DNA of 42,155 nt from Oscillospiraceae bacterium (GTDB lineage Bacteria > Bacillota > Clostridia > Oscillospirales > Acutalibacteraceae). The notes under the pieces are model-generated. The model did no database searches. It was not told the DNA's origin and saw nothing but the letters and a program-made list of their open reading frames with translations. Made by a program: the position numbers and the translations under genes. The stretch lies in assembly GCA_902792905.1 (NCBI GenBank), contig CADBBH010000016.1, forward strand, positions 1-42,155. The letters are read 5' to 3'. Positions 671 through 27,975 of this stretch are shown in pieces. Numbering within the stretch: the stretch's first letter is position 1; every line of letters starts with the position of its first letter.

Positions 671-700
671 GAAAAAACAGCCCCCGGTTGAGGGCTGTCG
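671..700 (-). terminator. Terminator of the alr operon
   Basis: Stem ACAGCCC (677-683) pairs with GGGCTGT (692-698). On the minus strand it is followed by a run of six T residues. It lies about 70 bp past the alr stop codon and is the natural end of the seven-gene minus-strand operon. Confidence 0.8.
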
Positions 701-765: not shown

Positions 766-1908
766 TTACGTCTTGTCGGAGAAAACTTTTCCGTCCCTGA
801 AATAAACTCTGGGAACGCGTTTGTTGACGCGGCAGGGGAGCTCGTAATTGAAGGAATGGGCGGCGTTTGAAACCTCTTCCATCGTGAGCGTCGCTCCGCC
901 CTGAGTGCCGACGAGGACAACTTCATCGCCCGGCTTGCAATCAATTCCCGTGACATCAACCATGAACTGGTCCATACATACTCTGCCTGTAATCGGGGCA
1001 AATTGACCGTTTATGATGACCTTGCCGAGATTTGAGAGGCAGCGGGGATAGCCGTCCGCGTAGCCGACCGGAATGGTCGCTATTTTTGTATCTTTTTCCG
1101 TCCTGTATGTTCCGCCGTAGGAGATTTCTCTGCCCTCTTCAAGCGTTTTCACGTGGCTTATATAAGTTTTCCACTCCATTACGGGGCGGATTGAGAGCAG
1201 GCTCTTGTCAACCTCCTCGGAAGGGTAGAGGCCGTAGAGGATGATTCCCATGCGGCACATATCGAAATACTCATCGAAATTCATAATGCCCGCCGAATTG
1301 TTGAGATGCTTAACGGGGATATCGATGCCCCTGCTTTCGAGCATTCCGACGAATTTTTTATATCTTTCCCTCTGCGCCTTCGCGCGGGTGAGGTCGGCTG
1401 AATCCGCGGTCGCGAAATGCGAGAAAAGTCCCTCGGCGAAGATGTTCGGAAGGGCGGTGATTTCTTTGCAGATATCGGCGCTCTCCTCTGTTATCTGAAA
1501 ACCGATGCGGCTCATACCCGTATCAATGCAGAAATGGAAGGGCGCGGTTTTGCCCTGCCTGACGGCTTCATCCGACAGCGCCTTCGCGTCTTCAATATTG
1601 AAAATCGGGATTCTGATATCGTGTTTCACAATCTCCTCATAGTCCCAGGGAAAGACTCTGCCGAGAATAAGCACGGGAGTTTCAATTCCCGCCTTTCTGA
1701 GCTCGAGTGCCTCCTCAGTGCAGGCAACTCCGAAGAAATCCGCTTTTCCCTCAAGAAACCTGCCGATTTCGGCGGCTCCGTGGCCGTAGGCGTCCGCCTT
1801 GATGACGCAGAGCACCCTGACCCCTTCGGCGACCTTGTTCCTGACGGAATTGTAGTTATACTCGATATTGTCGAGATTTATCGCGGCGTAGGTTCTGTGT
1901 TTAATCAT
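766..1908 (-). CDS. alr: Alanine racemase
   Basis: PLP-dependent interconversion of L- and D-alanine in the cytoplasm, supplying D-Ala for peptidoglycan and for D-amino acid transaminases. The 380-residue length is normal for the family. The N-terminal TIM-barrel motif VIKADAYGHG carries the PLP lysine at Lys37; the second catalytic base is Tyr264 in EISYGGTYR; CMDQFMVDVT near the C-terminus is also family-typical. The start overlaps the pxpA stop as ATGA and has GGCGA upstream. It is the last gene of the operon, before the terminator at 677-698. Its place next to a D-amino acid aminotransferase and 5-oxoprolinase genes suggests a role in D-amino acid interconversion beyond cell-wall supply; that part is inference. 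Confidence 0.95.
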   Translation of the reverse strand: MIKHRTYAAINLDNIEYNYNSVRNKVAEGVRVLCVIKADAYGHGAAEIGRFLEGKADFFGVACTEEALELRKAGIETPVLILGRVFPWDYEEIVKHDIRIPIFNIEDAKALSDEAVRQGKTAPFHFCIDTGMSRIGFQITEESADICKEITALPNIFAEGLFSHFATADSADLTRAKAQRERYKKFVGMLESRGIDIPVKHLNNSAGIMNFDEYFDMCRMGIILYGLYPSEEVDKSLLSIRPVMEWKTYISHVKTLEEGREISYGGTYRTEKDTKIATIPVGYADGYPRCLSNLGKVIINGQFAPITGRVCMDQFMVDVTGIDCKPGDEVVLVGTQGGATLTMEEVSNAAHSFNYELPCRVNKRVPRVYFRDGKVFSDKT

Positions 1909-2660
1909 TTTATCGCCTCTGAAAGTTTTACGGTTTCAATACCGTTTTCACTGAATGCTTTTCTGAGCGCCTTAACGAAATCGAGCGCCTTGGCGCTGTC
2001 TCCGTGAACGCAGACTGAATGGGCTTCGAGAGGAACGTCTTCGCCGCTGTATGCCCTGACCTTTCCCTCTTTTATCATCCTGATTACTCGTTCGATTGCC
2101 TCGTTTTCATCGGTAATCATCGAGCCCTCAAGGGTTCTCGCACGCAGGGTGCCGTCGGCCTCATAGGCCCTGTCGGCGAATACTTCGCTGGCATATCTTA
2201 TGCCGACCTGCTTGGCGGCGTTTATCATCTCGGAGCCCGAGAGAGCGAGCAGGATAAGGTCCCTGTCATAATCGCGGACGGCGTTCGCAATCGCGAGCGA
2301 GAGCCCGATATCCTTTGCCGCCATATTATACATCGCGCCGTGGGGCTTTACGTGCTCGAGCTTTACGCCCTTCGCCTTTGCCATCGCGCCGAGCGCGCCT
2401 ATCTGATAAAGAGTGAAATCATAGACCTCTCCGGGAGTGACATCCATCTTCGTGCGCCCGAAATTCTCTTTGTCCGGGTAGCCGGGATGAGCGCCGAGAG
2501 CGACTGAATTTGCCTTGCAGAGCTCAATGGTCTTATCCATAAGAATACTGTCGCCGGCGTGGAAGCCGCAGGCAACGTTTGCGCCTGTAATAAGCGGAAT
2601 AATTTCGCCGTCGCAGAGCGCGCCTTCTCCTAAATCGCTGTTCAGGTCAACCTTATACAT
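1905..2660 (-). CDS. pxpA: 5-oxoprolinase subunit PxpA (LamB/YcsF family)
   Basis: With PxpB and PxpC it forms the prokaryotic ATP-dependent 5-oxoprolinase that opens 5-oxoproline (pyroglutamate) to glutamate. The 251 residues carry the family signatures: LNSDLGE (6-12), ANVACGFHAGD (27-37) and GAHPGYPD (56-63). Length matches the family. Start ATG at 2660 follows a GGTGAT ribosome site, 9 nt after the DUF1445 stop. Here pxpA is separated from pxpBC by the DUF1445 gene, whereas the three subunits are often contiguous. Assignment is firm at family level; which stereoisomer of 5-oxoproline it handles in this operon cannot be read from sequence. Confidence 0.93.
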   Translation of the reverse strand: MYKVDLNSDLGEGALCDGEIIPLITGANVACGFHAGDSILMDKTIELCKANSVALGAHPGYPDKENFGRTKMDVTPGEVYDFTLYQIGALGAMAKAKGVKLEHVKPHGAMYNMAAKDIGLSLAIANAVRDYDRDLILLALSGSEMINAAKQVGIRYASEVFADRAYEADGTLRARTLEGSMITDENEAIERVIRMIKEGKVRAYSGEDVPLEAHSVCVHGDSAKALDFVKALRKAFSENGIETVKLSEAIK

Positions 2661-2669
2661 ATTATCACC

Positions 2670-3455
2670 TCAGTATTTGAGATTTACGTTTTTGACATCG
2701 GTAATGAACATATGCCCGGGAGCGTGGGTAATCGCTATGGGCGGCTTTGACTGCATTACAGCGTTCTGCGGGGTGACTCCGCAGGCCCAGAATACGGGGA
2801 TTTCGCCCTCGTTTATCGTAACGCTGTCGCCGTAATCGGGCTTTGTGACATCCGTGATGCCGATGGCTTCGGGATTTCCGATATGAACGGGCGCGCCGTG
2901 AACTCTCGGCATAGCCGCCGTCACGTTGACCGCCTTGACTACGAGATTATCGGGAATCGGGCGCATTGAAACGACCATATTGCCGTGGAATTTGCCCGCG
3001 CTCTGAAGAACGATATTCGTATTGAACATCGGCACGTTTCTGCCCTCTTCAATATGTCTCACGGGCACCTCCGCCTCGAGCATTTCGCTCTCGAAGCTGA
3101 AGGAACAGCCGATAAGGAAATATACGAAATCATCCTGCCAGTAATCGGTTATGTCGGTGACTTCCTTCTCGAGCACGCCGTTTTTCCATATGCGGTATTT
3201 CGGGAAATCCTTACATACGTCGCCTTCGACCGCCATTGTCTTAAACTCTTTTGAGCCGACATCGCCGACCTCGAGAATCGGGCAGGGCTTGGGGTTTCTC
3301 ATACAGAAGAGCAGGAAATCAAAGGCGTAATCCTTCGGCAGAATGCAGAGATTCGCCTGCGCGTAGCCGTTGCACATACCCGAGGTCTGAAAATCGATTT
3401 TTCCCTCGCGGATGAGCTTTTTCACTTCCTGCGGATGCATTGTTGAATAGTCCAT
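2670..3455 (-). CDS. DUF1445 / YcsI-family protein (D-glutamate cyclase N-domain type)
   Basis: A 261-residue protein of the YcsI/DUF1445 family, often labelled putative hydro-lyase. Recognised from conserved stretches such as GMCNGYAQANLCILP (26-40), FLIGCSFSFE in the middle and APVHIGNPEAIGI before the C-terminal FWACGVTPQNA segment. Length is typical. In human DGLUCY (mitochondrial D-glutamate cyclase) a DUF1445 domain is fused to a DUF4392 domain, and a separate DUF4392 gene lies three genes upstream here, so both halves share one operon. The DUF1445 partner's own activity is not established. It could act on 5-oxoproline or a related cyclic amino acid, or support the cyclase. Start ATG 3455 lies just past the pxpC stop with GAGG upstream. 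Confidence 0.85.
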   Translation of the reverse strand: MDYSTMHPQEVKKLIREGKIDFQTSGMCNGYAQANLCILPKDYAFDFLLFCMRNPKPCPILEVGDVGSKEFKTMAVEGDVCKDFPKYRIWKNGVLEKEVTDITDYWQDDFVYFLIGCSFSFESEMLEAEVPVRHIEEGRNVPMFNTNIVLQSAGKFHGNMVVSMRPIPDNLVVKAVNVTAAMPRVHGAPVHIGNPEAIGITDVTKPDYGDSVTINEGEIPVFWACGVTPQNAVMQSKPPIAITHAPGHMFITDVKNVNLKY

Positions 3456-3457
3456 AT

Positions 3458-4381
3458 TTACCTCTTCAAAAGTTCTTCAAAGTATTGTTTTTCTTTAACC
3501 GCAAGCTCCTCGGCTTCTTCAACGCTCATCTTAACGAAGCGTATCGTATTGCCGGGGCGCGCCTGCGCGAGTTTTGACAGCTCCGCGCCTGCGACGGTCG
3601 CAATCTTGGCGTAACCGCCCGTTGTCTGATGATCCGCCATAAGGATAATGGGTTTTCCCGAGTTCGGAATCTGAACGGAGCCGAAGACTATGCCGTCGGA
3701 GATGATGTCCTTTCCGCTTTTGCTCTGAAGCTCGGGACCTTCGAGGCGGATGCCCATGCGGTCGAGCTCGCTCGTGACGGTGTATTCTGCGCAGAAGAAG
3801 GTCTCAATATCCTCGCCGGTGAACATATCGTCCTGCGGGCCGGGAACCGCGCCGACTTCAATCACGGCCGGATAATCCGCCGCGGGAACGCAGTCGCCTT
3901 CTTTGATACCGGGCGAGGGGGTTCCCGTTTCGATTTTATCATAGGTGCGAAGCTTTCTGCCCTCATATCCGCCGAGCGAAATTTTGAGATTCGTCGATGC
4001 GCTGCCCATAAACAGGGGAACTCTGAAGCCACCGCCGACGGCGAGGCAGCATCTGAAGCCCTCCGTCGCCGCGCCGACGGAAATGATATCATTCTTCTTC
4101 GCTTTATAAACAGTGTTTCTTTCTATCTTGTTTTCATTGAGCTTTGCGCTGAAATTTCCGCCGCTCAGGCAGAAATAAGTCTCATCGTCAAACCAGGCGG
4201 TGAGGCCCTTCATCGTCATTTCAATAACGGGTGCGTTCAGGTCGTTTTTCAGCAGGGCGTTCGCGAGCTTCATCGAATGCGAATCCATCGCTCCGCTCTG
4301 GGTGAAGCCGTTTTTCATAACGCCGAATCTGCCCGCATCCTGCACGGTTGAGAGAGCGCCGCCGGTAATAATTTCAAGCAT
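3458..4381 (-). CDS. pxpC: 5-oxoprolinase subunit PxpC (biotin-dependent carboxyltransferase-like)
   Basis: The large KipA/AHS2-type subunit of the PxpABC 5-oxoprolinase. The N-terminal STVQDAGR (11-18) with following GAMD is diagnostic of the family, as is LMADHQTTGGYAKIATV in the C-terminal half. About 307 residues, normal for the family. A GTG at 4384 is in frame, but ATG 4381 is preferred: it makes a TGATG overlap with the pxpB stop, the same arrangement as at the pxpB start, and sits behind GGAGG. The tight overlaps fit co-translation of PxpB and PxpC as a complex. Confidence 0.92.
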   Translation of the reverse strand: MLEIITGGALSTVQDAGRFGVMKNGFTQSGAMDSHSMKLANALLKNDLNAPVIEMTMKGLTAWFDDETYFCLSGGNFSAKLNENKIERNTVYKAKKNDIISVGAATEGFRCCLAVGGGFRVPLFMGSASTNLKISLGGYEGRKLRTYDKIETGTPSPGIKEGDCVPAADYPAVIEVGAVPGPQDDMFTGEDIETFFCAEYTVTSELDRMGIRLEGPELQSKSGKDIISDGIVFGSVQIPNSGKPIILMADHQTTGGYAKIATVAGAELSKLAQARPGNTIRFVKMSVEEAEELAVKEKQYFEELLKR

Positions 4382-5103
4382 CACTCCGCCTCCGTTATCT
4401 CAGGTGTGTATTCTCCCGCACGAACCTTCGCTTCGATTTTTTCATATTCTTCAAGGGTTACGGGATAAAACTTTATATAGTCTCCCGCTTTGTAGAGAAT
4501 CGGATTCTCCTTTGAAGGGTCGAAAACCTTTACGGGAGTTTTGCCGAGAAGCTGCCAGCCGCCGGGCGAGGCGATGGGATAAATTCCGGTCTGGCTTCCG
4601 CCGATTCCGACTGCTCCCTCAAAGATTTCAAGGCGCGGGGATTTGAGGCGGGGAGTCGCGAGGCGCTCATCCATTCCGCCGAGATACGCAAAGCCCGGCA
4701 AAAAGCCGAGCATATAGATAAGATAGGGCTTTGAGGTATGCAGAGCGATAACCTCATCGCGCGAGAGGCCCGTATGCTCCGTGACATTGCCCATATCGGG
4801 AGAAAACTGCTCATCATAGCAGACGGGAATATTATAAATCTTTGCGTTTTTCGCTCCGCCGACAGACATCGAGTCAATCAGCGAGGATATTTCTTCCTTT
4901 AACCGGCCGGCTCTGATAACCGCGCAGTCATAGAGCACGGTCAGCGAGGTGAAGGTCGGGATAAGCTCGATGACGCCGGATATTTTTTTATCCTCAATCA
5001 CAGCGGCGAGGGCGGTCACGAAGCCGTTTACCTCATCGCTGATTTTTCTTTCAAACTGCACTGTCAGCGCCGTGTCGGCATTCGACAGAAATTCGTAAAA
5101 CAT
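4381..5103 (-). CDS. pxpB: 5-oxoprolinase subunit PxpB (KipI/AHS1 family)
   Basis: Cyclophilin-like small subunit of the ATP-dependent 5-oxoprolinase, related to the KipI sporulation-kinase inhibitor and allophanate hydrolase subunit 1. The 240 residues contain LGFLPGFAYLGG (132-143), TPRLKSPR (150-157) and the SPGGWQLLG segment (179-187), all hallmarks of the family. The start codon overlaps the stop of the upstream DUF4392 gene as TGATG, and its own stop overlaps pxpC the same way. With neighbouring pxpA and pxpC present, an enzymatic Pxp role is more likely than a stand-alone KipI role. Confidence 0.92.
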   Translation of the reverse strand: MFYEFLSNADTALTVQFERKISDEVNGFVTALAAVIEDKKISGVIELIPTFTSLTVLYDCAVIRAGRLKEEISSLIDSMSVGGAKNAKIYNIPVCYDEQFSPDMGNVTEHTGLSRDEVIALHTSKPYLIYMLGFLPGFAYLGGMDERLATPRLKSPRLEIFEGAVGIGGSQTGIYPIASPGGWQLLGKTPVKVFDPSKENPILYKAGDYIKFYPVTLEEYEKIEAKVRAGEYTPEITEAE

Positions 5104-6161
5104 CAGCCGAAGAATCCTTTCCTGATGGTGTTGGTAAACCAGTGCTCGGTCTTGTCGGTTACGGTCGGCGGATACTCGATGAGAGCTTTCATGAGAGAGA
5201 CCATCGGGCAGTTTATATTCTCGCCGAAGCCGTCGATATAAGGCCTTGCTTCGCCGTACATATCAAGCATTCCGGCATTCGCGGCGGCCTCCATGACCTT
5301 CGCCTGCATTTCTCCCGTGTGGAAGAGCGACGGCTTGCCGAGAATGAACGCCGCAGCCGCCATAAGAGCGTTGCAGCCCCAGTCGGAAACGGTCGCGGTG
5401 ATAATGTTGTCCGCCGCTGTGTCGGCGAGGATGCCGTAGCCCGTGCCCGCCTTGCAGCCGCCGAGCTCCGCGTAGGGAACGTATTTTCTGATATGCTCCT
5501 CAATGGCGCCCATGCCTATTTCATTGCCGAGATCGCCGATTGAGAGATTCCAGACTCCGAGGGCCTGACATTTTCTGAAAAGAACATCGTATTTTGCCTC
5601 GACATCGGTTGTGTTGACGCCGGTGGCATTGTGATAATAGCCGTTTTTGTTTCTTCCGGGCGCTTCGTTGGTAAAGCAGACGCAGGGTCTGCCGTGGGAG
5701 AGAATTTCATCCGCGCATTTTTCCGCCTCGTCATCATTCTTCGTGAAATTCACGACGCAGACGGTGTTTTCGCCGATGTTGTCCAAATCAACGGTGAGCT
5801 CCATATCGAGCACCTTGCACATCGCCGCGATGGATTTGTTGCACTGGTCGGGAACTATCATCACCGGCTTTGCGCCGAAGGCGTTTATAAGGAATCTGGC
5901 AAAGACGGTTGAGGAGATGATTCCGTCGGTCTCCGCCTCGTTCCAGGGCATAAGGACAAAGCCCGTCAGGATATAGACGAGCTCTCCTTTTTTAACATTT
6001 TTGATAAGCCCCTTCGCGGCGTGGGTTGAGAGCGGCTCGCCCGTGAATTTGCGGGAGCCGTTGTAGAGAATACGGCAGACGCCGTAGCCGCGAGGGTCAA
6101 GATTCATAAGCTGATCGAGGTTTTCGCCGATATTGAAAAGAGTGAGTTCTTCTCTTGTCAT
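5103..6161 (-). CDS. DUF4392 protein, probable D-glutamate cyclase
   Basis: A 352-residue protein matching the DUF4392 family, the catalytic C-terminal part of mammalian D-glutamate cyclase (DGLUCY), which dehydrates D-glutamate to 5-oxo-D-proline. Recognised features are an early LDPRGYG, the block GFVLMPWNEAETDGIISS (67-84), and a later GIGDLGNEIGMG-like stretch (read here as SIGDLGNEIGMGAIEE). No signal peptide or membrane segment is seen, so it is cytoplasmic. Start ATG 6161 follows AGGTGA. It stands between dat, which can make D-glutamate, and pxpBC, which open 5-oxoproline. The D-glutamate cyclase call rests on family knowledge plus this context; activity of this protein is inferred. 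Confidence 0.85.
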   Translation of the reverse strand: MTREELTLFNIGENLDQLMNLDPRGYGVCRILYNGSRKFTGEPLSTHAAKGLIKNVKKGELVYILTGFVLMPWNEAETDGIISSTVFARFLINAFGAKPVMIVPDQCNKSIAAMCKVLDMELTVDLDNIGENTVCVVNFTKNDDEAEKCADEILSHGRPCVCFTNEAPGRNKNGYYHNATGVNTTDVEAKYDVLFRKCQALGVWNLSIGDLGNEIGMGAIEEHIRKYVPYAELGGCKAGTGYGILADTAADNIITATVSDWGCNALMAAAAFILGKPSLFHTGEMQAKVMEAAANAGMLDMYGEARPYIDGFGENINCPMVSLMKALIEYPPTVTDKTEHWFTNTIRKGFFG

Positions 6162-6182
6162 GATTCAATCACCTTTCTGAAA

Positions 6183-7028
6183 TCAGTCTGCCTTGCACTG
6201 CTCCTCATAATCCGCAACGAGGGCGTCCTGAATGGTTTTGAGCATTTCGGGCGCCTTGCCGCCGACGGGCTTGCCGTCAACATGGGCGACGGGGATGCAG
6301 AAGGAACCGGTTGAGTGTACGATGACCTCGTCCGCGTTCATAAGCTCGTCGAGAGTATATTCTCTCTCTTCGGTAGCAAAGCCGAGCTTCTCGGCAAAAG
6401 CGAGCAGTCTGATTCTCGCCGTGCCGGGCAGAATCTTGTCATCGAGCGGGTGGGTGATGACCTTGCCGTCTTTGAATATGGAAACATTTGAATGGGCGCA
6501 TTCGGTGACGATATCGCCCCTGTGGAAGATAGCTTCCTTGCAGCCGGCTCTGTCAGCCGCGGTGGCTCCGAGCACGGAGGGGATGAGGTTGAGGGTTTTG
6601 CAGTTGCAGTATAAGAAGCGCTTATCCTCAAAAGTGATTACATCTATCGGGGTATAGGTATCCGCTACGGGCTGGGGAGTGAGGGTGACCCAGAGATTGC
6701 CTTTCATATCGGCGTCGTAAATGTGATTTCTCGGCGCGCTGCCTCTGGTGCACTGCATATATACAAACTGATCGCCGTCGTCAACTTTGAGCACAAGGTC
6801 CTTGAGAAGGGCGGCGAGCTCGTCCTTGGGAATCGGAATATTGATTTCAAGAATCTTTGCGCTGTTATAAAAGCGGGTGAGATGATGATCGAGATCGAAA
6901 ATCTTGTGATTGTGGGAGTAGGTCGCATCATAGATGCCGTCGCCGAACCAGCTGACTCTGTCAATCATCGGAATAGTCATATTCTCGATTTCGTCGTATT
7001 TGCCGTTGTAGTAGCCCAATGTTTTCAT
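6183..7028 (-). CDS. dat: D-amino acid aminotransferase (class IV PLP enzyme)
   Basis: Transfers the amino group between D-alanine and 2-oxoglutarate, giving D-glutamate and pyruvate. The class IV fold is shown by GDGIYDATYSHN (29-40), the PLP lysine in CKTLNLIPSV (Lys144) and the VTECAHSNVSIF segment. 281 residues from ATG 7028, chosen over an in-frame start 39 bp upstream because AGGTGAT sits just before 7028 and the family N-terminus starts at this point. A branched-chain or 4-amino-4-deoxychorismate relative is possible, but the alr/pxp/D-glutamate-cyclase neighbours favour the D-amino acid role. It is the first gene of the operon, behind the promoter at 7067-7094. Confidence 0.83.
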   Translation of the reverse strand: MKTLGYYNGKYDEIENMTIPMIDRVSWFGDGIYDATYSHNHKIFDLDHHLTRFYNSAKILEINIPIPKDELAALLKDLVLKVDDGDQFVYMQCTRGSAPRNHIYDADMKGNLWVTLTPQPVADTYTPIDVITFEDKRFLYCNCKTLNLIPSVLGATAADRAGCKEAIFHRGDIVTECAHSNVSIFKDGKVITHPLDDKILPGTARIRLLAFAEKLGFATEEREYTLDELMNADEVIVHSTGSFCIPVAHVDGKPVGGKAPEMLKTIQDALVADYEEQCKAD

Positions 7029-7066: not shown

Positions 7067-7094
7067 ATTATAGACCTTTTACTATAAAAGTAAA
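7067..7094 (-). promoter_or_regulatory. Probable sigma-A promoter of the dat-alr operon
   Basis: On the minus strand a perfect TATAAT (7067-7072) lies 16 bp downstream of TTTACT (7089-7094), about 40 bp ahead of the dat start codon. The flanking DNA is AT-rich and holds an imperfect inverted repeat (CTTTTAC..GTAAAG) between and around the two hexamers, which could be an operator. Confidence 0.55.
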
Positions 7095-14788: not shown

Positions 14789-15835
14789 TTAATCTCTGCC
14801 TTCGTAACCAACGAAGCTGTCCTGATAAATGGTTGACCAGAGAACCCAGACATCGGAGCCGCTCATGAAGTATGAGTCGTCAACGAGCTGATCCGCGCCT
14901 GCCGCTCTGCGGAAGCCGCCGAGTTTCAGACCCTGAACGAATAGATTCGCCTGCTCGGGTGATTTGAAGGTAATGCGGTTCTTGGTCTTGATTTCGGTTC
15001 TGGGAGCTGTATATTTGGTAACCTGACCCTTGACGAAGCCGGTTGCCCACCAGTAGGTGTCATAAGGTCTGGTGAATACTTTCTTATAAGTGCCGTTGCC
15101 GCCCTTGCAGTAGTAGCAGTCGAGCTGCATCTTGAGCCAGTCGGCTTTGTCGGCCGCGTTGAAGTGGTTGATATCTCCGGTGCCGCCGTTATACTGATCG
15201 AGATCGCAGGTGTAAACGCCGATTTCAGCGCCGATGAGAAGATAGCCGTACTGACCCTTCCAGAGCTGAATCATCCAGTTCTTTCCGCCGTACTGGAAGC
15301 GGATTCTGACCTGGTCGATATACATTGCCGCGTAGGGAGCGAGCTTATCATAAACCTCGTTATAGCCGGTATCCTTCTGCCAGTTATCCTTATCGTCGCA
15401 GTAGTAATAACCGTCGCTTGAATATCTGTAGCCGAGGAAGGACTGCTTCGCGTCGTCGCCGATCATCTTCTGAACGTTCATCTTGGTATCGCTGTTCTCG
15501 GCTTCGGAGCTAGCCTTCTTGGTAGTGGTGCTTCCGTTCTTGGTGGTTTTTGCAGCTTTGGTAGCGTTGTTTATTACTCTGGTGATTGCCTGGGTAACTC
15601 TTGTGACAGCGTTGCCCTGAGCGTCGGTCTCGGGCTCGGCTTCAACGGTGCTGTCGGGCTCTGCGGTCGGCTCGGTATAATCATAATAATCTTCTTCGGT
15701 GATTTCGACCTGTCTTTCGGTGTTTGCGGTTGTGGGTTCAACGGTGGCGGGCTTTCTCAGGAAATAAACTGCCGCGCCGCAGCCGCCGATAACGAGGGCC
15801 GCACAGATTGCAAGAACGATGATTTTGGTTTTCAT
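14789..15835 (-). CDS. DUF4474-domain membrane-anchored surface protein (copy 2)
   Basis: 348 residues. Residues 1-26 are a membrane anchor or signal (a GGCGAAVYFL stretch could also act as a lipobox, but the following residues stay hydrophobic). Residues 30-125 form a Thr/Ala/Glu-rich linker with TTTKK runs. The globular part from about 125 holds FLGYRYSSDGYYY, FQYGGKNWMIQLWKGQYG and GAEIGVYT, hallmarks of DUF4474. The function of DUF4474 is unknown. It is paralogous to the next gene upstream: both share the QLWKGQY block, a WWxTGxVxGQ segment and a closing RITFKxxEQA-x-GF region. Start ATG 15835 follows AGGAG; the gap to its paralogue is 20 bp. Confidence 0.8.
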   Translation of the reverse strand: MKTKIIVLAICAALVIGGCGAAVYFLRKPATVEPTTANTERQVEITEEDYYDYTEPTAEPDSTVEAEPETDAQGNAVTRVTQAITRVINNATKAAKTTKNGSTTTKKASSEAENSDTKMNVQKMIGDDAKQSFLGYRYSSDGYYYCDDKDNWQKDTGYNEVYDKLAPYAAMYIDQVRIRFQYGGKNWMIQLWKGQYGYLLIGAEIGVYTCDLDQYNGGTGDINHFNAADKADWLKMQLDCYYCKGGNGTYKKVFTRPYDTYWWATGFVKGQVTKYTAPRTEIKTKNRITFKSPEQANLFVQGLKLGGFRRAAGADQLVDDSYFMSGSDVWVLWSTIYQDSFVGYEGRD

Positions 15836-15855
15836 AGTTAAACTCTCCTCTTAAA

Positions 15856-16950
15856 TTATCTTACATCTTGCCAGAGATAAATAACATCTTTGCCGTATCT
15901 CTTACATGTATCTTTAACGGTGGGGTTGAAGGTCTCAACACTTCTGAACCCTGCCTTAACAAGAGCCTTTTCGAATTCGCCCGCCTGCTCTTCATCCTTG
16001 AAGGTGATTCTCTGAAGAATCCTCAGGGGAGAAGAATCCTTGCGGTTTTTGAGCTGGCCGTCAACGTAGCCGGTCTCCCACCAGTGCTTCGCGTATTTAC
16101 GCGTGAGCTGAGGCAGATAGTTGCCGTCGCCGTTTTCATCCCAGAATATCGTGAGCTCGCACCAGAGCCAGTCGCTCTCGTCGGCGCAGTCATAGTGACC
16201 GATTGCCGAGGTCTTGCCGACGGGCCTGGTATAGATGCCGACCTCTCCGCCGACAGTCCCGATATCGCCCGAAATATACTGGCCTTTCCAGAGCTGAATC
16301 ATATACTGCTTGTTGTCATAGTTGAATTTGATTCTCGAGGTCTCGATGCTGAAATCGATGAGCTTTGCTCCGGCGTCGTAAAGCACGTTATAGCCGAATT
16401 TTCTCTGCGTGCAGTCCGGCGAGGTATCATCGTTGTAGATGAATGTCTTCGGACCGATTACGCTGAATCCCGAGCGCTGAAGACCCGTGAAATACATATC
16501 GTTCGGCAGCGAGGAATCGACTGTTGATGACGCCGCGGGAGCCACGCCCTTCTTTGTGTCTTCCTCCTTGAGCACCGGCATCGTGACTTCTTCATCGACT
16601 ACGACATCGACCTTGGTGCCGCTGATCGCGAGCTGAGTGGTCTTCGCGATTGTGGTCGCGACCTTGGTCGCCGCCTTCTTTGCCGCCGTCTGTCTGACGG
16701 TTGTTGACGGCGCTGTCACGCTCGTGCTTTCTTCGGCGCTCGCCGCTTCGGTTTCGTAGGTGTAGTCAAACGCCGTTGTTTCTTCCGGCTGAGCAATCGT
16801 GTTGTATGAAGCGGTCGTGTTATTCGGCTGAGCCTTACCCTCGACCGAGCCGTTTCGCGAAATCCGCACGCCGAGTACGCTGACTGCGGCGATAAGACCC
16901 GCTGCGGCAACTCCCACCACAATGGCGGGGGCGTTGATTCCTTTCTTCAT
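15856..16950 (-). CDS. DUF4474-domain membrane-anchored surface protein (copy 1)
   Basis: 364 residues with an N-terminal transmembrane anchor (about 9-27), then a low-complexity Thr/Ala/Lys linker (about 35-135), then the DUF4474 domain: SFKFNYDNKQYMIQLWKG-like core (read here as IKFNYDNKQYMIQLWKGQY), GTVGGEVGIYTRP, KHWWETGYVDGQL and RITFKDEEQAGEFEKAL. It forms a tandem pair with the downstream paralogue, so a local duplication followed by strong divergence is likely. The domain faces outside if the anchor is N-in. Start ATG 16950 follows GGAGG and lies 42 bp after the tmRNA 3' end, with no clear terminator between, so readthrough from ssrA is possible. Confidence 0.8.
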   Translation of the reverse strand: MKKGINAPAIVVGVAAAGLIAAVSVLGVRISRNGSVEGKAQPNNTTASYNTIAQPEETTAFDYTYETEAASAEESTSVTAPSTTVRQTAAKKAATKVATTIAKTTQLAISGTKVDVVVDEEVTMPVLKEEDTKKGVAPAASSTVDSSLPNDMYFTGLQRSGFSVIGPKTFIYNDDTSPDCTQRKFGYNVLYDAGAKLIDFSIETSRIKFNYDNKQYMIQLWKGQYISGDIGTVGGEVGIYTRPVGKTSAIGHYDCADESDWLWCELTIFWDENGDGNYLPQLTRKYAKHWWETGYVDGQLKNRKDSSPLRILQRITFKDEEQAGEFEKALVKAGFRSVETFNPTVKDTCKRYGKDVIYLWQDVR

Positions 16951-16992: not shown

Positions 16993-17339
16993 TGGTGGAG
17001 ATGGCGGTAATCGAAACCGCGTCCGAAAAACCTTTGCAGGGACTTTCTACGAGTGTATCTTACCTTCTGACATTCCCTCTCCCGCACGCCGGTAATCGGG
17101 CTTACGGGTTCAGTAGGCGGATTGTGCGTGACCGGCTATCCGTCATCGCCGGTGCACGTTCACTGCTGAGTGACGCCTCTTATGCGGCCGCAGTCCTCCG
17201 CACAGAGACGGCTGCTATTTAAGCAGCAAGAGCAACTGTATTGTTGTCGTTTAAATTTTAGATTGCGGATTTTAGAGCGGTCCCGCCCCGCTACTCGCTT
17301 ATCCGGGCTCGGATTCCCCGTCGAAATCCTTTCATCCCC
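16993..17339 (-). ncRNA. ssrA: Transfer-messenger RNA (tmRNA)
   Basis: Rescues stalled ribosomes with SmpB. The 5' end GGGGATGAAAGGATTTCGAC (from 17339) pairs with the 3' end CATCTCC-ACCA (to 16993), including one G-U pair, to make the acceptor stem. GCGGTTTCGATTACCGC forms the T-arm, and CCA is encoded. The mRNA-like part ends at TAA 17221-17219. Reading back gives the tag DNNTVALAA, with GAC (17248-17246) as the likely resume codon since UAAAC precedes it. The final ALAA is the usual degron. The 347-nt size is normal. It starts only 14 nt past the smpB stop, so both are probably cotranscribed and the 5' end made by RNase P. Confidence 0.93.
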
Positions 17340-19846: not shown

Positions 19847-21160
19847 TCAGTGCTCCCTGGCGTTTTTGATAATGTTGTCCACGCTTCTGCGAAGGGCGGG
19901 GTCCCTCTCCGCCATTGCGGTGATTTTTTCGAGGGCGTAGTGGATTGTGGTCCTGTCTCTGCCGCCGAAGAATTCGCAGATTTCCTGCTGGGTGAGCTCG
20001 GTGCATTCCCTGATGGCGAAAATCGCAATCTGCCTTGCCTTGGCGGTCTTGCTGTCCTTCTTCTTGGAAATTATATCGCTGACCGGCAGGCCGTAGGTTC
20101 TTGCCGTTTCGGAAATGATTTTATTAACAAGCTCGTTTACGGGCATTCCCTCGCTGGCGAGGTCGCTGATTGCGTTCTGCGCCATGGCAATATTTATGGA
20201 AGTGCCCTCGAGAGTGACGAGCGCGTGGATTTTCTTGACCGTGCCCTCAAGCTGGCGGATGTTTGTCTTCACCTTCTCGGCGATGAATTCCGCTACCTCC
20301 TGAGGCAGATTGAGTCCGATTGCCTCCGCTTTGCTGCTGATGATAGCGAGTCTCGTCTCATAATCGGGCGGCTGGATATCAGCAAGAAGTCCCTGCTCGA
20401 TGCGGGTGGTGATTCTGTCCGCGAGATTCGGGATGTTTTTGGGCGGAGTATCGGAGGTGAGAACGACCTGTTTGTTCGCGTCGGTCAGCACGTTGAAGGT
20501 GTGGAAGAATTCCTCCTCGGTTCTCTCCTTGCCGGCGATGAACTGGATATCGTCAACGAGCAGGGCATCGCAGGTGCGAAGCTGCGCGTGAACCTCGTCC
20601 ATAGTGCCTTTGAGAAGACCGCCGACTATAAGATTGACAAGGTCTTCGCCTCTGGTATATATGATTTTTTTATTTGGGTCCTTCTCGAGAATCGCGTTCT
20701 TGATGGCGTTGAGAAGATGGGTTTTGCCCAGACCCGACGAACCGTAGATATAGAGGGGGTTATAGACTGTGCCGGGATCGCTTGTGACAGCTTTCGCGGC
20801 GTTATACGCAAATCTGTTTGACGAGCCGACGACAAAGGTGTCGAAGGTGTTCGCGTCGGATGAAACAGGCGCCTGAGCCGCGGGTTTCGGCGCTTCACGC
20901 ACCGGAGCGGCTGCGGCCTTTTCGCGGGAAACAAACGAGATTTCCGGAACGAAACCGACCACGTTGCTGAATGCCTCGGCAAGCTCATCGGCAAACTGCT
21001 TCTCTATTGTGGTTTTGATGAATTCGCTCGCTGAGAGCGTGACAACGGCGCCGTCATACGAAATAATCTCGACGGGCTTGAACCAGACATTGTAAATAAC
21101 TTCGTTCAGTGAATGCCTCAGATCCTGGCTGACGAGGCTCCACATTTCTTTCAAATCCAT
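19847..21160 (-). CDS. dnaA: Chromosomal replication initiator DnaA
   Basis: AAA+ initiator that binds DnaA boxes at oriC and opens the duplex. Domain I is residues 1-75 (MDLKEMWSLVSQDL), the linker domain II about 80-110 is Ala/Pro-rich, domain III has Walker A GSSGLGKT (140-147), Walker B LLVDDIQF and sensor segments, and domain IV ends with FGGRDRTTIHYALEKI, the DNA-binding signature. 437 residues, normal. It has its own promoter (21212-21240) and AGGAG before ATG 21160. It runs divergently from rpmH, as in most bacteria, but dnaN and recF are not next to it; ftsY follows instead. Confidence 0.97.
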   Translation of the reverse strand: MDLKEMWSLVSQDLRHSLNEVIYNVWFKPVEIISYDGAVVTLSASEFIKTTIEKQFADELAEAFSNVVGFVPEISFVSREKAAAAPVREAPKPAAQAPVSSDANTFDTFVVGSSNRFAYNAAKAVTSDPGTVYNPLYIYGSSGLGKTHLLNAIKNAILEKDPNKKIIYTRGEDLVNLIVGGLLKGTMDEVHAQLRTCDALLVDDIQFIAGKERTEEEFFHTFNVLTDANKQVVLTSDTPPKNIPNLADRITTRIEQGLLADIQPPDYETRLAIISSKAEAIGLNLPQEVAEFIAEKVKTNIRQLEGTVKKIHALVTLEGTSINIAMAQNAISDLASEGMPVNELVNKIISETARTYGLPVSDIISKKKDSKTAKARQIAIFAIRECTELTQQEICEFFGGRDRTTIHYALEKITAMAERDPALRRSVDNIIKNAREH

Positions 21161-24296: not shown

Positions 24297-25676
24297 TCAG
24301 TCTATGTTATCGAGTATCTCTCTGAGTGTGATATCGGGATTCGAGCAGCCCATAACGAGCGCCTTGACGGTATTGTCCTGAAGGCGGTCGATATCCGCGG
24401 TTGAGATGGTATCCGTTCTGTGAAGATAGGCGAATCTCAGGCCGCCGGTGACGGAATCCTTCATAGTGTATGTATAAAGAGGCATGACGTAATGGCCGAT
24501 GCTGTAGCCGTGGAATTCATATTCCCAGCCGTTCATCGTGTCATTCTCAAGCGGGAACCATGAGAACATCATGGTCGTTGTGCCGTCTTTCATGCTGTAA
24601 TTGAAAAGCTCGCGCTCATTCTCAAGCCAGCGGATGAACGGGTAATTATTGTGTCTCATTATATCGCCCTGAAGGGTCTTGAGCTTGTTAACCGCCTGAG
24701 CGAAGGTGAGATCCTCGGGGAGGATGACTCTCCAGGGAAGGGCAGAGGCCATTGTGCCGCCGCAGCGCTTCTCGTTGACGGTCCTTCTTCTGTTGGAAAG
24801 AACGAGGAAATGAGTGTCGTCGTGTCTGTGGTTGATTTTGCCGACATGAAGACGCATACCGAGCTGAACAACGCATTCGCCGCTTATCTGGTTCTTCTCC
24901 ATATAGTCGAGAATCACCCTGCTGTCTTCAACGGAGAGAGTTCTCTTTTCGAGAACTGCGGTGTCGTGAATCGGGTCAAAGCTGCCGCAGGCGCGAAGGT
25001 CGGGCTTCTTTTTCTTTATTCTCGTCTTGTCAAGCGGCTCGGGGCCCATGACGCCGTTCCAGATGGGCTCGCCGTCCTTGAGGAAATAATTGACATAGAA
25101 GTCTTTATCCGCCTGAACTTTTTCCGCGTTGTTTATGTATTCGAGTTCCTTCTTGATTGCCGCTTCATAGCTGCCGAGAGGCTTCGGCATCTCGGTTCCG
25201 TTTTCGAGCGCCTCATAGACCTTGAGCAGATCGTCGAAGAAGATGAATACGGCGGGCGCGTCCATCGCGAGATGGATGACGTTGATGTAGATGCCGTTTC
25301 TGCCGTCTGCAGTGTTGAAGAAAAAGATGCGGTAGGTTTCGCCCTTGAAGCATTTTATCGGCTTCTGAGCGTCAGCGGTCAGGAATTCATCCTGCTCTTT
25401 ATCGCTCTTGAAATTCATTACGGGAATCTTGCCAATATCGACTTTCTCTTCAAAATACTGGGTGAATCCGCCCTTCTTTGAGAAGCGTAATCTCATGCAG
25501 TCGTTTCTCTCGATTTCCTTCTCGAGTGCCTTCTGCATGATGTCGAAGTTGATTTTTCTCTTAACCACTATCGAAGCGGGAATCTGTATTACCTGCTTAT
25601 GAAAGAAGGAATACTTCAGCATGAAATTAATCATTTCCTGCGCGGGGGTAAACGGGTAAATTGTCGGTTTGCTCAT
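24297..25676 (-). CDS. Condensation-domain-like acyltransferase
   Basis: 459 residues resembling stand-alone NRPS condensation domains and alcohol/amine acyltransferases of the CoA-dependent acyltransferase superfamily. An N-terminal TPAQEMINFML opening segment resembles the start of C domains. The active-site motif reads VIHLAMDA (His135, Asp139): the second His and the Asp of HHxxxDG are kept, the first His is Ile and the Gly is Ala. Later SNRRRTVNEKRCGGTMASALPWR resembles the C-terminal-half core of the fold. The overlap with the upstream ligase gene is 4 nt (ATGA). Predicted role: transfer of an acyl group from the carrier protein to an amine or alcohol. The acceptor is unknown. Confidence 0.68.
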   Translation of the reverse strand: MSKPTIYPFTPAQEMINFMLKYSFFHKQVIQIPASIVVKRKINFDIMQKALEKEIERNDCMRLRFSKKGGFTQYFEEKVDIGKIPVMNFKSDKEQDEFLTADAQKPIKCFKGETYRIFFFNTADGRNGIYINVIHLAMDAPAVFIFFDDLLKVYEALENGTEMPKPLGSYEAAIKKELEYINNAEKVQADKDFYVNYFLKDGEPIWNGVMGPEPLDKTRIKKKKPDLRACGSFDPIHDTAVLEKRTLSVEDSRVILDYMEKNQISGECVVQLGMRLHVGKINHRHDDTHFLVLSNRRRTVNEKRCGGTMASALPWRVILPEDLTFAQAVNKLKTLQGDIMRHNNYPFIRWLENERELFNYSMKDGTTTMMFSWFPLENDTMNGWEYEFHGYSIGHYVMPLYTYTMKDSVTGGLRFAYLHRTDTISTADIDRLQDNTVKALVMGCSNPDITLREILDNID

Positions 25677-27226
25677 TTTGATACCACTGTTTCCTTTCTG
25701 ATGAGTTTGCCGCTCGGGGTCTTCTCAAACGGAACGTCTCTCACGCGGAGCTCCGCTATTATATGGGACGCCTTCGCGGTCGAATTCATCATCTTGATTT
25801 TTTCCTTGATTATGCCTTCTATATCCGAAATACCGTTTATCGAGCAGTATTCTTTATTCGGGAAGACTTCGGCGACTATGCGGTCGTTCTCCGCATAAAT
25901 CTGAACTTCCTCAACCTCGTGAATCGGAGCGAATTTCTTCTCTATCGCTTCGGGAGAAACATTTTCGCCGCCGGAGAGAATTATCAGATTCTTGAGTCTG
26001 CCGGTTATGAAAAGCTGCCTGTCTTCGGTTACGTAACCGAGGTCGCCCGTTCTCAGCCAGCCGTCAACTGTGAACATCTTTTTGGTCTCCTCGGGCATTT
26101 TGTAATAGCCGAGCATAACTGACGGGGTTTTAACCTGAATTTCGCCCTTCTGGGTACGTACATCGCAGATGTCGATGACTCTGCCGACCGATTCAACCGA
26201 AACCGTCTCATCGGGAACCGAAATTCTGCAGCCCGCCTCGGTCATACCGTAGCCCTGCCTGAGATAAATGCCGAGCTCATCATAGCCCTCAACTATCTCG
26301 GGATTGAGATAGGCGCCGCCCGAAATCAGCCAGGTGATATTTCTGCCGAACACCTTTTCTTTTGCCTGCTCGGGGGTGAGGGGATTATTCTTCTTTGAGG
26401 TCAGCACCTTGATTCTGTTGAGGAGAGACTGCGCCATCATCGGAACGACGCGCATAACATTCGGCTCAAATCTCTTGAGGTTGGAACTGAGATCGCGCAG
26501 GTCCTTATTTATGCAGACCGTAACGCCGTCCTGCAGGTTGCGGATGCAGTCGCCCGAGAATGAGTAGATATGGTGCATCGGAAGAACCGAGAGGGCGACC
26601 CTGCCGTTGTCGAGGGCTTCGCAGTAATCGGTATACATGATGTTCGCGATGAGCGAATAGGTCGAGAGCATAACTCCCTTCCTCTTGCCGGTGGTTCCGC
26701 TGGTATAGATAATCAGGGCGCATTTATTTTTATCCACCCTGAAATCGGAGAGGGCGGCATATTTCGGATTATCGGTATATTTATCTATGATGCGGGCGAA
26801 TTCCACATCATCGCTGAAATTGATTGCCTTGTAGATTCGCGGCAGGGCGGTCATTATTTCCTGCGCCTCTGCGGTGAATTCATCCTCGTGCAGGATTATG
26901 TCTATATCGGCGCTGTCAAAAAGCTTGATGGCGTCCTTTGAGGAAATCTGCGGGTCAAAAGGAACGGCGACATTGCCGCTGAGAAGAATTCCGAAAAAGT
27001 ATATGATGAAATTATAGGTGGTCCTGCCCGCAATGGCGATATGCTTGTTGCAGACGGAATTGTGAATAAGCCATCTGCAGACAGCGAGAGAATCCTCCCT
27101 TACCTTTTCGTAGCTCTTTTCGATAACGGTATTGCCGTCGAAATACTTTATGAATATTTTATCGCCGAATTTTTCGGCGGAATTGTCAAGCAATTCCCTG
27201 AGATCCGGTACATAAAAATCTTTCAT
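25673..27226 (-). CDS. Class I adenylate-forming enzyme (acyl-CoA/acyl-carrier ligase type)
   Basis: Activates a carboxylic acid as acyl-AMP and transfers it to CoA or, more likely here, to the carrier protein at 24059-24283. Motifs: IIYTSGTTGKRKG (A3, near 172-184), RQGYGMTEAGCR (A5), GWLRTGDLGY (A7), GRLKNLIILSGGENVSPEAIE (split; A8) and PSGKLIRK with the catalytic Lys (A10). 517 residues. ATG 27226 is preferred to ATG 27238 because GAGGATT lies 7 nt upstream. The sequence is closer to fatty-acyl ligases than to amino-acid adenylation domains by eye, so a lipid tail is a reasonable guess. Upstream 27239-27373 is AT-rich with several TATAAT-like boxes but no clear -35. Confidence 0.87.
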   Translation of the reverse strand: MKDFYVPDLRELLDNSAEKFGDKIFIKYFDGNTVIEKSYEKVREDSLAVCRWLIHNSVCNKHIAIAGRTTYNFIIYFFGILLSGNVAVPFDPQISSKDAIKLFDSADIDIILHEDEFTAEAQEIMTALPRIYKAINFSDDVEFARIIDKYTDNPKYAALSDFRVDKNKCALIIYTSGTTGKRKGVMLSTYSLIANIMYTDYCEALDNGRVALSVLPMHHIYSFSGDCIRNLQDGVTVCINKDLRDLSSNLKRFEPNVMRVVPMMAQSLLNRIKVLTSKKNNPLTPEQAKEKVFGRNITWLISGGAYLNPEIVEGYDELGIYLRQGYGMTEAGCRISVPDETVSVESVGRVIDICDVRTQKGEIQVKTPSVMLGYYKMPEETKKMFTVDGWLRTGDLGYVTEDRQLFITGRLKNLIILSGGENVSPEAIEKKFAPIHEVEEVQIYAENDRIVAEVFPNKEYCSINGISDIEGIIKEKIKMMNSTAKASHIIAELRVRDVPFEKTPSGKLIRKETVVSK

Positions 27227-27240
27227 TTCAATCCTCATAC

Positions 27241-27266
27241 GGCGCGTTGGTTTCGTTTCGCGCGCC
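27241..27266. other. GGCGCG...CGCGCC inverted repeat upstream of the ligase gene
   Basis: A GC-rich inverted repeat (27241-27246 with 27261-27266, loop 14 nt) inside otherwise AT-rich DNA, 14 bp before the preferred ligase start. It would form a hairpin in the 5' untranslated region and could affect access to the ribosome site, or be an operator. No function is shown. Confidence 0.4.
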
Positions 27267-27373
27267 TCATATATAATATTGTAATTATATATTTATATAA
27301 ACAGACATTTTTACACTTTCGTATAGTTTTTCAGGCAAAATCAAAAGTTGCCCAAAGATTTAATTCAAAAAAA

Positions 27374-27412
27374 GCTTGCAGCCCTCACCCGTTACGGGTG
27401 CAGACTGCAAGC
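27374..27412 (-). terminator. Terminator overlapping the end of the PPTase gene
   Basis: Stem GCTTGCAG (27374-27381) with CTGCAAGC (27405-27412), with an inner CACCC/GGGTG stem, followed on the minus strand by seven T residues. The PPTase stop codon (27385-27387) lies inside the hairpin, so the last residues (LAVCTRNG) are coded by its upstream arm. Confidence 0.88.
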
Positions 27413-27975
27413 ACGTAATCATCCGTTATTTCGCTTTTGTATTCAAATCCGGGGATATCCGAAACGGGTTTTCCGCCCGATAAATCAAATGAGATTTCGT
27501 TGAGATTATTCCGGATTCCCTCGCCGGTGCATTTGAGATGCGCCTCCTTGAGAGTCCAGATTATCAGGAATTTTTCCGGGTCGCCGCCGATGTATTCAAG
27601 CTCGCTCCCGGTCGCAATCCGCTTCGATGCCGGAATGCTCTTTCTGCCTTTTTCTTCAATATCGATGCCGACCGGCTCATCGGAGACCGCGGCTGCGGCA
27701 AACCTGCCCGAGTGGGAATAATTTATGAAGCAGCCGCCGTTTTCAATATACGGCTTTCCGTGCGAATCCCGGCTTATTCTGACATCGCAGGGGGGAATAT
27801 TCAGATAATCTGAAACCGCCTGCCTCGTGAGATGGTCGGCGAGGATGCAGAGTTTCCGGTCGGCTTCCCTTATATACCGGTCGCATTTTCCGCGCCTTTC
27901 GGAGGACATTTCGAGATACATCTCATCAAAACGGGTATCCGTGTAATTTTCGATGCAGTCAACCTTGATAATCAT
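27385..27975 (-). CDS. Sfp-type 4'-phosphopantetheinyl transferase
   Basis: Transfers phosphopantetheine from CoA to a serine of a carrier protein. Diagnostic residues are GIDIE with Asp105 and Glu107 (Mg2+ ligands) and WTLKEAHLKCTGEG (140-153), the W-x2-KEA-x2-K motif; INYSHSG (84-90) is the conserved substrate segment. 196 residues. ATG 27975 overlaps the lipoprotein stop by 4 nt; a longer open frame upstream is a shadow. The nearest carrier-protein gene is two genes downstream past the terminator, so activation of that protein is the best guess. AcpS-type enzymes for fatty-acid synthesis are normally smaller. Confidence 0.92.
   Translation of the reverse strand: MIIKVDCIENYTDTRFDEMYLEMSSERRGKCDRYIREADRKLCILADHLTRQAVSDYLNIPPCDVRISRDSHGKPYIENGGCFINYSHSGRFAAAAVSDEPVGIDIEEKGRKSIPASKRIATGSELEYIGGDPEKFLIIWTLKEAHLKCTGEGIRNNLNEISFDLSGGKPVSDIPGFEYKSEITDDYVLAVCTRNG

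Follow-up and report, generated by a model that had tools for sequence, protein, structure and literature searches.

How a bacterium might turn D-glutamate into L-glutamate through 5-oxoproline, with an oxoprolinase that elsewhere serves the L form of the ring, is the question raised by a seven-gene operon on contig CADBBH010000016.1 of an Oscillospiraceae bacterium. The whole stretch of DNA analysed, 42,155 nucleotides long, is referred to as the window. The operon encodes a DUF4392 protein and a DUF1445 protein, the two domains that make up the animal D-glutamate cyclase DGLUCY, together with the 5-oxoprolinase subunits PxpA, PxpB and PxpC, a class IV aminotransferase and an alanine racemase (Alr). 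A probability of about one half is given to the proposal that these genes encode a one-way D-glutamate line, in which a DUF4392 cyclase, a DUF1445 racemase and PxpABC would act in turn, fed by Alr and the aminotransferase. The identities and order of the genes are conserved widely, the genes co-occur across genomes, and the two DGLUCY-type proteins retain metal ligands and cysteines, respectively. The same partners recur around different DUF4392 lineages, partly in another phylum, and this is the best evidence for a shared pathway.

The operon and its conservation

Coordinates follow the numbering of the window, and the genes, all on the minus strand, are given in transcript order:

7067..7094, minus strand: candidate promoter TTTACT-16-TATAAT ahead of the first gene (10/12 matches)
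6183..7028, minus strand: class IV aminotransferase, D-amino acid aminotransferase-like (DAT; Aminotran_4 140.9 bits; ATG at 7028)
5103..6161, minus strand: DUF4392 / GLUCM-like_C, predicted Mn-dependent D-glutamate cyclase (PF14336 293.8 bits)
4381..5103, minus strand: PxpB, 5-oxoprolinase subunit (CT_C_D 237.1 bits; TIGR00370 213.9 against a cut-off of 145.55)
3458..4381 (ATG, used here) or ..4384 (GTG), minus strand: PxpC, 5-oxoprolinase subunit (CT_A_B 300.9 bits)
2670..3455, minus strand: DUF1445 (Pfam D-Glu_cyclase, YcsI/UPF0317), predicted 5-oxoproline racemase (PF07286 235.2 bits)
1905..2660, minus strand: PxpA, 5-oxoprolinase subunit (LamB_YcsF 310.2 bits; NF003814 322 against a cut-off of 226)
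766..1908, minus strand: alanine racemase, Alr (Ala_racemase_N/C 224.6/167.6 bits; TIGR00492 368.4 against a cut-off of 168)
676..699, minus strand: terminator-like stem-loop with a T tail past the last gene

The seven open reading frames form a single run from 766 to 7028 in which the longest gap between genes is 21 bp; from 5’ to 3’ the junctions are a gap of 21 bp, two overlaps of 1 bp each (4 bp for the second if PxpC starts at its GTG), gaps of 2 and 9 bp, and an overlap of 4 bp. The first-pass annotation had described one minus-strand operon with this gene order, these identities and this tight spacing, and had pointed to both DGLUCY-type halves as unfused genes within it; open reading frames and Pfam matches bear out both descriptions. 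All the Pfam domains of the operon score far above their cut-offs. PxpC misses the equivalog model NF045499 (249.9 against 500) but passes the domain model TIGR00724 (307.1 against 230.2), so all three Pxp subunits lie in one gene run, with DUF1445 between PxpA and PxpC. The promoter- and terminator-like sites are candidates: 6 promoter-like sites in the region compare with a shuffle mean of 5.7, which is no enrichment, and 13 terminator-like sites with 9.4 in shuffles, which is little excess. Another terminator-like site lies upstream of the operon (7175-7153). The upstream neighbours, a ThiF family protein, a GDSL protein and LarE, are separated from the operon by 289 bp, and the contig ends 765 bp downstream of it.

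The label of D-amino acid aminotransferase given earlier to the first gene holds as D-type-like only. Its best solved relatives are D-amino acid aminotransferases, and R100 and H102, invariant in 10/10 operon copies, align (hand-counted on the alignment) with R98 and H100 of the Bacillus D-amino acid aminotransferase, which are taken here to be its carboxylate trap. The protein nevertheless falls below the cut-off of the D-amino-acid transaminase model TIGR01121 (220.1 bits against 277.45), and D-specificity is thus likely, not settled. A longer form with a TTG start, reaching 7067, is also listed among the open reading frames.

The annotation had proposed a survey of co-occurrence, and had named confinement of the neighbourhood to this genome as one of two findings that would refute its reading. 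Such a survey finds DUF4392, DUF1445, pxp and aminotransferase genes linked in many genomes; conserved copies in other clostridia, both in the sample of the window's order and among named relatives, rule out a unique arrangement. Among 398 genomes of Bacillota, the window's phylum, 43 carry DUF4392, 64 DUF1445 and 121 PxpB. DUF4392 and DUF1445 occur together in 32 (Fisher p 2e-20, relatedness uncorrected in these tests), 17 of these within 10 kb; 63 of the 64 DUF1445 carriers also have PxpB (p 5e-38), 49 within 10 kb; and DUF4392 and PxpB share 35 genomes, in 7 of which they lie within 10 kb. DUF4392 is present in 10/197 genomes of the window's order. Besides the window's own genome, two of these contain the full seven-gene run in the same order (G406, G580), and in two the aminotransferase-DUF4392 part runs to the contig end (G515, G425). 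The others carry the whole operon minus Alr (G532), the operon minus aminotransferase and Alr (G545), DUF1445-DUF4392 (G489), or DUF4392 alone (G542 and G450).

Named relatives were drawn from a scan of one genome per species, using the best 80 of at least 521 confirmed relatives, a choice biased to close ones; 53 of these loci are of the window's kind (L137-L188, L213), many of them cut by contig ends. Of the 53, 15 have all seven genes, in 13 cases ordered as in the window, and a further 18 lack only Alr. The aminotransferase lies upstream of DUF4392 in 44/50 loci with at least 900 bp of upstream sequence, and where at least 5.5 kb of downstream sequence is available (39 loci) the counts are 34 for PxpB, 35 for PxpC, 35 for DUF1445, 34 for PxpA and 19 for Alr. 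Carriers of all seven genes include Eubacterium coprostanoligenes ATCC 51222 and, with a different order, Clostridium tyrobutyricum DSM 2637, and isolates with all but Alr include Clostridium sp. cel8, [Clostridium] aerotolerans DSM 5434 and Caproicibacter fermentans. Exceptions among the 53 are L153 (Pxp absent within 8 kb), L154, L157, L161 and L170. Two spirochaete metagenome-assembled genomes are represented, one with the operon (L185) and one with a cut part of it (L180). In the former, a single 595-residue frame (L185:8968-10752), matched as PxpC only, may join PxpB and PxpC; the genes beside it resemble Amt and serine dehydratase on visual inspection.

A tree built with FastTree from 136 DUF4392 rows (L073, L074, L154 and rows shorter than 220 aa left out) places most operon copies in one group of 59 rows with support 99. 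DUF4392 copies adjoining DUF1445, Pxp or aminotransferase genes also occur in a distant group (L035, L036, L046 and the contig-cut L037), and L033, L054/L055 and several DUF1445-adjacent copies are placed elsewhere, L033 and some other rows being long branches whose exact position is unsure. The Pseudoalteromonas sp. CF6-2 megaplasmid carries the gene row DUF1445-PxpA-DUF4392-class IV aminotransferase; each of the four proteins has a profile match, the aminotransferase remotely (162.9 bits), and neither PxpB nor PxpC is annotated within 5 kb of the row.

Putative cyclase and racemase

DUF4392 is predicted to be a Mn-dependent D-glutamate cyclase. It scores 293.8 bits against the PF14336 gathering cut-off of 27.9, with no NCBIfam match, and its profile matches the TON_0340 structures 4dwz, 5gl2, 5gl3 and 5gl4. 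Its acidic residues E77, D79, E166, D210, E214 and D310 are invariant in 18/18 sequences; E77 aligns by hand count with E59 of TON_0340, and the other five metal ligands are matched by motif, not by the numbering of the paper. The two DGLUCY-type domains are separable, as 32/64 DUF1445 genomes of the phylum sample lack DUF4392 and 11/43 DUF4392 genomes lack DUF1445. Obligate subunits of a single cyclase are therefore unlikely, and the separation fits successive enzymes. Pxp is not linked to DUF4392 at 66 loci, with L128, L133, L153, L154, L157, L161 and L168 set aside. There the recurring neighbour families, each named from one representative, are ABC and TRAP transporters, PF17645 (arylmalonate decarboxylase, presumably Asp/Glu-racemase-like), an IclR regulator, a class I/II aminotransferase and gamma-glutamyltranspeptidase, which fit amino acid or gamma-glutamyl metabolism. 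Three of 60 plasmid records with DUF4392 were opened, and on one of them, a Sinorhizobium plasmid, DUF1445 lies ~3.7 kb away. As a separate observation, DUF4392 pairs flank an annotated selenocysteine synthase on Paraburkholderia (L221:3639-7026) and Sinorhizobium (L224:5962-9415) plasmids.

The DUF1445 protein exceeds the PF07286 cut-off of 25 with 235.2 bits and that of NF003969 with 422.8 against 324. Its profile matches 3db9 and 2pif, whose fold is also that of the predicted model (pLDDT 93.7). Three cysteines, C58, C117 and C225, are invariant in 53/53 proteins and in 6/6 plasmid copies, and in the predicted model C117 and C225 each come after a strand and ahead of a helix. This is the typical placement of the cysteines in cofactor-free two-thiol racemases. 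No internal sequence repeat was found (hhalign E 0.95), though the topology of the model would fit two pseudo-symmetric halves that each give one thiol; no known racemase fold stands among the structural matches listed for DUF1445, which excludes nothing.

Genome context ties DUF1445 to 5-oxoprolinase and not to DUF4392: all 32 phylum genomes with DUF1445 and without DUF4392 carry PxpB. DUF1445 is also present in 238/72,556 plasmid records at E 1e-20, ten of which were opened. Pxp genes adjoin it in 4/10 (Lactiplantibacillus plantarum, Levilactobacillus brevis, Azospirillum oryzae and Klebsiella), and PxpA and DUF4392 lie nearby in 1/10 (Pseudoalteromonas). One record each has a hydantoinase B/oxoprolinase (OPLAH-type) gene one gene away (Paraburkholderia sprentiae), a gamma-glutamyltransferase nearby, and a divergent DUF1445 relative, with all three cysteines retained, one gene after a dihydropyrimidinase (Agrobacterium plasmid, L223:2787-5750). 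No telling partner was found in 2/10, one of which has a D-serine ammonia-lyase further off. Across these ten plasmid records, a small sample, DUF1445 accompanies cyclic-amide opening and is not confined to a particular set of subunits. The dihydropyrimidinase context in Agrobacterium is one in which a hydantoin racemase could be expected. Divergent DUF1445 paralogues at L109:3415-4239 and L110:8332-9072, 44 and 43% identical to the window's copy, have no Pxp beside them but genes that on visual inspection resemble a LIV-type ABC transporter; the substrate of these paralogues may differ.

Because DUF1445 tracks PxpB where DUF4392 is missing, and because its three cysteines are invariant, it is favoured as a 5-oxoproline racemase acting between DUF4392 and PxpABC. 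That DUF1445 might be the missing racemase had been raised in the first-pass annotation, and the idea gains from the oxoprolinase association, held with or without DUF4392, as well as from the cysteines.

A different division of labour would make DUF1445 the D-glutamate cyclase and leave DUF4392 another task, for example the hydrolysis of a phosphorylated compound. The Pfam name of PF07286, D-Glu_cyclase, speaks for this, as do the NCBIfam name, putative hydro-lyase, and the in vitro activity of TON_0340 from Thermococcus onnurineus, reported as a Mn-dependent phosphatase of unknown natural substrate (PMC5132392; this and all other papers are cited from the parts of them available). The database names, however, appear to be inherited from DGLUCY, which was assayed as a two-domain protein in the part of that work available. 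The 32 genomes with DUF1445 and PxpB but no DUF4392 would need a source of D-glutamate, an L-specific oxoprolinase would still meet the D-ring, and a gamma-glutamyltranspeptidase-type neighbour occurs at 6/66 Pxp-unlinked DUF4392 loci (one representative scanned). Swapped roles are judged distinctly improbable.

In another alternative there would be no racemase, with the operon's PxpABC taking 5-oxo-D-proline to D- or L-glutamate and DUF1445 serving as an accessory or channelling protein. A change towards the D-ring might have left diagnostic residues. Comparison of 83 PxpA, 90 PxpB and 89 PxpC sequences at an 80% criterion finds no class-distinguishing site in PxpA or PxpC and one weak site in PxpB, residue 168, beside the conserved GGSQTG motif, which is Gly in 51/59 DUF4392-linked operons and Ala in 29/31 others. 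The distribution of this residue appears to reflect clade membership, not gene content: Gly168 is absent in the DUF4392-linked L033, L146, L148, L159, L054, L055 and L210 and present in the unlinked L099 and L108. One locus, L170, carries PxpB and PxpC with no DUF1445 match, as a racemase-free route would allow. On the other side, DUF1445 is retained with Pxp where DUF4392 is missing, and reopening 5-oxo-D-proline to D-glutamate would be a futile cycle. The operon PxpABC sequences hold no clear D-specificity signature, with which relaxed specificity is compatible; a route without a racemase is considered unlikely.

D-glutamate supply and direction of flow

In the favoured line, Alr and the aminotransferase would connect L-alanine, D-alanine, 2-oxoglutarate and D-glutamate, D-amino acids passing their amino group into D-glutamate; the aminotransferase probably converts D-alanine and 2-oxoglutarate to pyruvate and D-glutamate, which would also be available for murein. 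DUF4392 would cyclize D-glutamate to 5-oxo-D-proline, DUF1445 would convert this to 5-oxo-L-proline without a cofactor by means of catalytic cysteines, and PxpABC would open the L-ring to L-glutamate with ATP, a step whose ATP-driven ring opening would make the line one-way. Each bacterial reaction is inferred from the work on DGLUCY (PMC5339696) and PxpABC (PMC10448178, PMC13274462) and from general knowledge; which way the line runs and how DUF4392 and DUF1445 share the work are likewise inferences.

In the window's genome, which is 84% complete, MurI is not matched and the operon's Alr is the only one detected; for this reason Alr and the aminotransferase may also feed murein synthesis. Dat is a known alternative to racemases, as stated in the part of PMC5885031 available. 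No MurI match is present in the two nearest relatives (G589 and G590), and MurI over its cut-off is missing in 8/10 DUF4392 genomes of the order against 30/187 others (p 3e-5). Among the closest named loci, 50 of the 53 of which were used, MurI is present in 24/50 carrier genomes against 157/187 order genomes without DUF4392 (p 8e-7; relatedness uncorrected, completeness not given, four of the 50 without parts of the operon); one more carrier genome, G636, has a cut MurI match of 129 bits. MurI-positive carriers include E. coprostanoligenes and C. tyrobutyricum, and Caproicibacter fermentans has no MurI match. MurI loss is thus linked only in part to the operon, and with 24/50 carriers retaining MurI the operon is not upheld as a general MurI replacement. 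The aminotransferase is no more than weakly tied to MurI absence and explains it poorly; such absence was found in 10/30 order genomes with it against 28/167 without (p 0.045; partly counted by subtraction). Those 28/167 genomes, without the operon-type aminotransferase and without MurI over cut-off, may have another D-glutamate source or incomplete assemblies. Alr and the aminotransferase may be the murein D-glutamate source in some carriers, perhaps including the window's, and not in others.

The same absences allow the opposite direction of flow, in which DUF1445 would make 5-oxo-D-proline from the L form and DUF4392 would hydrolyse it to D-glutamate for murein in cells without MurI. Consistent with this, L153 retains DUF4392-DUF1445-Alr with Pxp not nearby, and both MurI over cut-off and an aminotransferase match are lacking in two order genomes (G542, G545). 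Ring opening of 5-oxoproline without ATP is, however, uphill; the adjacent aminotransferase is a simpler source of D-glutamate, PxpABC would drain the intermediate, and the MurI-positive carriers include C. guangxiense, the host of L153. This biosynthetic direction is regarded as the least probable of the alternatives.

A purely nutritional role, in which imported D-amino acids or gamma-glutamyl and 5-oxoproline compounds are degraded with no murein link, draws on genes found beside some copies. Ahead of the operon and on its own strand, L165 has a LIV-type ABC transporter, as do L166 and L185 with one more open reading frame between; several Lachnospiraceae and one spirochaete have such a transporter in this position. 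Families of the LIV permease and binding protein, named from one scanned representative each, are shared by 8 to 9 loci. At 6 loci, belonging to 5 genomes, an Lrp/AsnC-type protein (one scanned) is encoded ahead of the operon; the hosts are Clostridium species, a near relative and a further lineage. The Azospirillum oryzae row is LIV genes-DUF1445-PxpB-PxpC-PxpA. Neither a transporter nor a regulator is present in the window's operon or in its three upstream neighbours, with only 765 bp left downstream, and a place for the only Alr detected in this 84% complete genome would hardly be expected in an operon with a degradative role alone. Such a role is very unlikely.

The racemase proposal can be extended, more tentatively and with less than even confidence, to a general scheme. 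DUF1445 (YcsI) would be the founding member of a class of cofactor-free, cysteine-based cyclic-amide racemases, on a fold that racemases are not known to have; with DUF4392 and PxpABC it would form a general bacterial route from D-glutamate to L-glutamate via 5-oxoproline, the domains DUF1445 and DUF4392 being fused in animals as DGLUCY. In MurI-less cells the operon would both supply D-glutamate, through the aminotransferase, and drain its excess.

Elsewhere in the window, all on the minus strand, are two adjacent DUF4474 proteins (14789-16950), a tmRNA gene with the tag DNNTVALAA (16993-17339), and a DnaA-like protein in which the N-terminal, ATPase and C-terminal domains are all present (19847-21160). 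A Condensation-domain protein, an AMP-binding enzyme and a 4'-phosphopantetheinyl transferase (24297-28077) look like a small system of non-ribosomal peptide type.

Comparison with known systems

DUF1445 is widespread, in plasmids as well as in B. subtilis, and is half of an animal enzyme, and the unfused bacterial genes allow each half of DGLUCY to be tested singly. If the proposed line is correct, it adds a new enzyme activity, accounts for YcsI in the pxp operon and shows which half of DGLUCY does what; gut clostridia would gain an ATP-driven path from D-glutamate to L-glutamate, perhaps most important where MurI is missing. In the open-access literature, which leaves most subscription papers outside its coverage, no paper was found that describes such an operon, in which Pxp is joined by the aminotransferase and Alr, or the activity of DUF1445.

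DGLUCY (human C14orf159, mouse 9030617O03Rik) is a mitochondrial D-glutamate cyclase holding both domains, and the recombinant mouse protein, with both present, converts D-glutamate to 5-oxo-D-proline (PMC5339696). The window has the same two domains, DUF1445 and DUF4392, but as unfused genes (2670-3455 and 5103-6161) separated by pxpB and pxpC; 5-oxoprolinase, aminotransferase and Alr are encoded in the same operon. Split GLUCM_HUMAN homologues in gut microbes are already tabulated, 0 full-length and 6 split as the columns of the table read (PMC11580864), and sequential steps for the fused halves were proposed in PMC5132392. TON_0340 has the same domain as the window's DUF4392, which retains its six acidic metal ligands; the former was assayed as a phosphatase, whereas the latter is a predicted cyclase. 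PxpA, PxpB and PxpC are common to the operon and to the known clusters of B. subtilis, which includes ycsG and ycsI and so also has DUF1445, and of C. glutamicum (pxpTABC) (PMC10448178, PMC13274462); both clusters serve 5-oxo-L-proline. DUF4392 is matched in 0/14 control genomes, these two species included, whereas DUF1445 and PxpB are both matched in that of B. subtilis. The Bacillus D-amino acid aminotransferase (1DAA family) is among the closest solved relatives of the operon's first gene product, which differs in falling under the TIGR01121 cut-off and in sitting with predicted D-glutamate removal. In hydantoin racemase-hydantoinase clusters a racemase feeds a stereospecific ring-opening enzyme, and the hydantoin racemases known so far are members of the Asp/Glu racemase superfamily. 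The proposed line would share this logic of a racemase ahead of a ring opener, although DUF1445 is not of the hydantoin racemase family.

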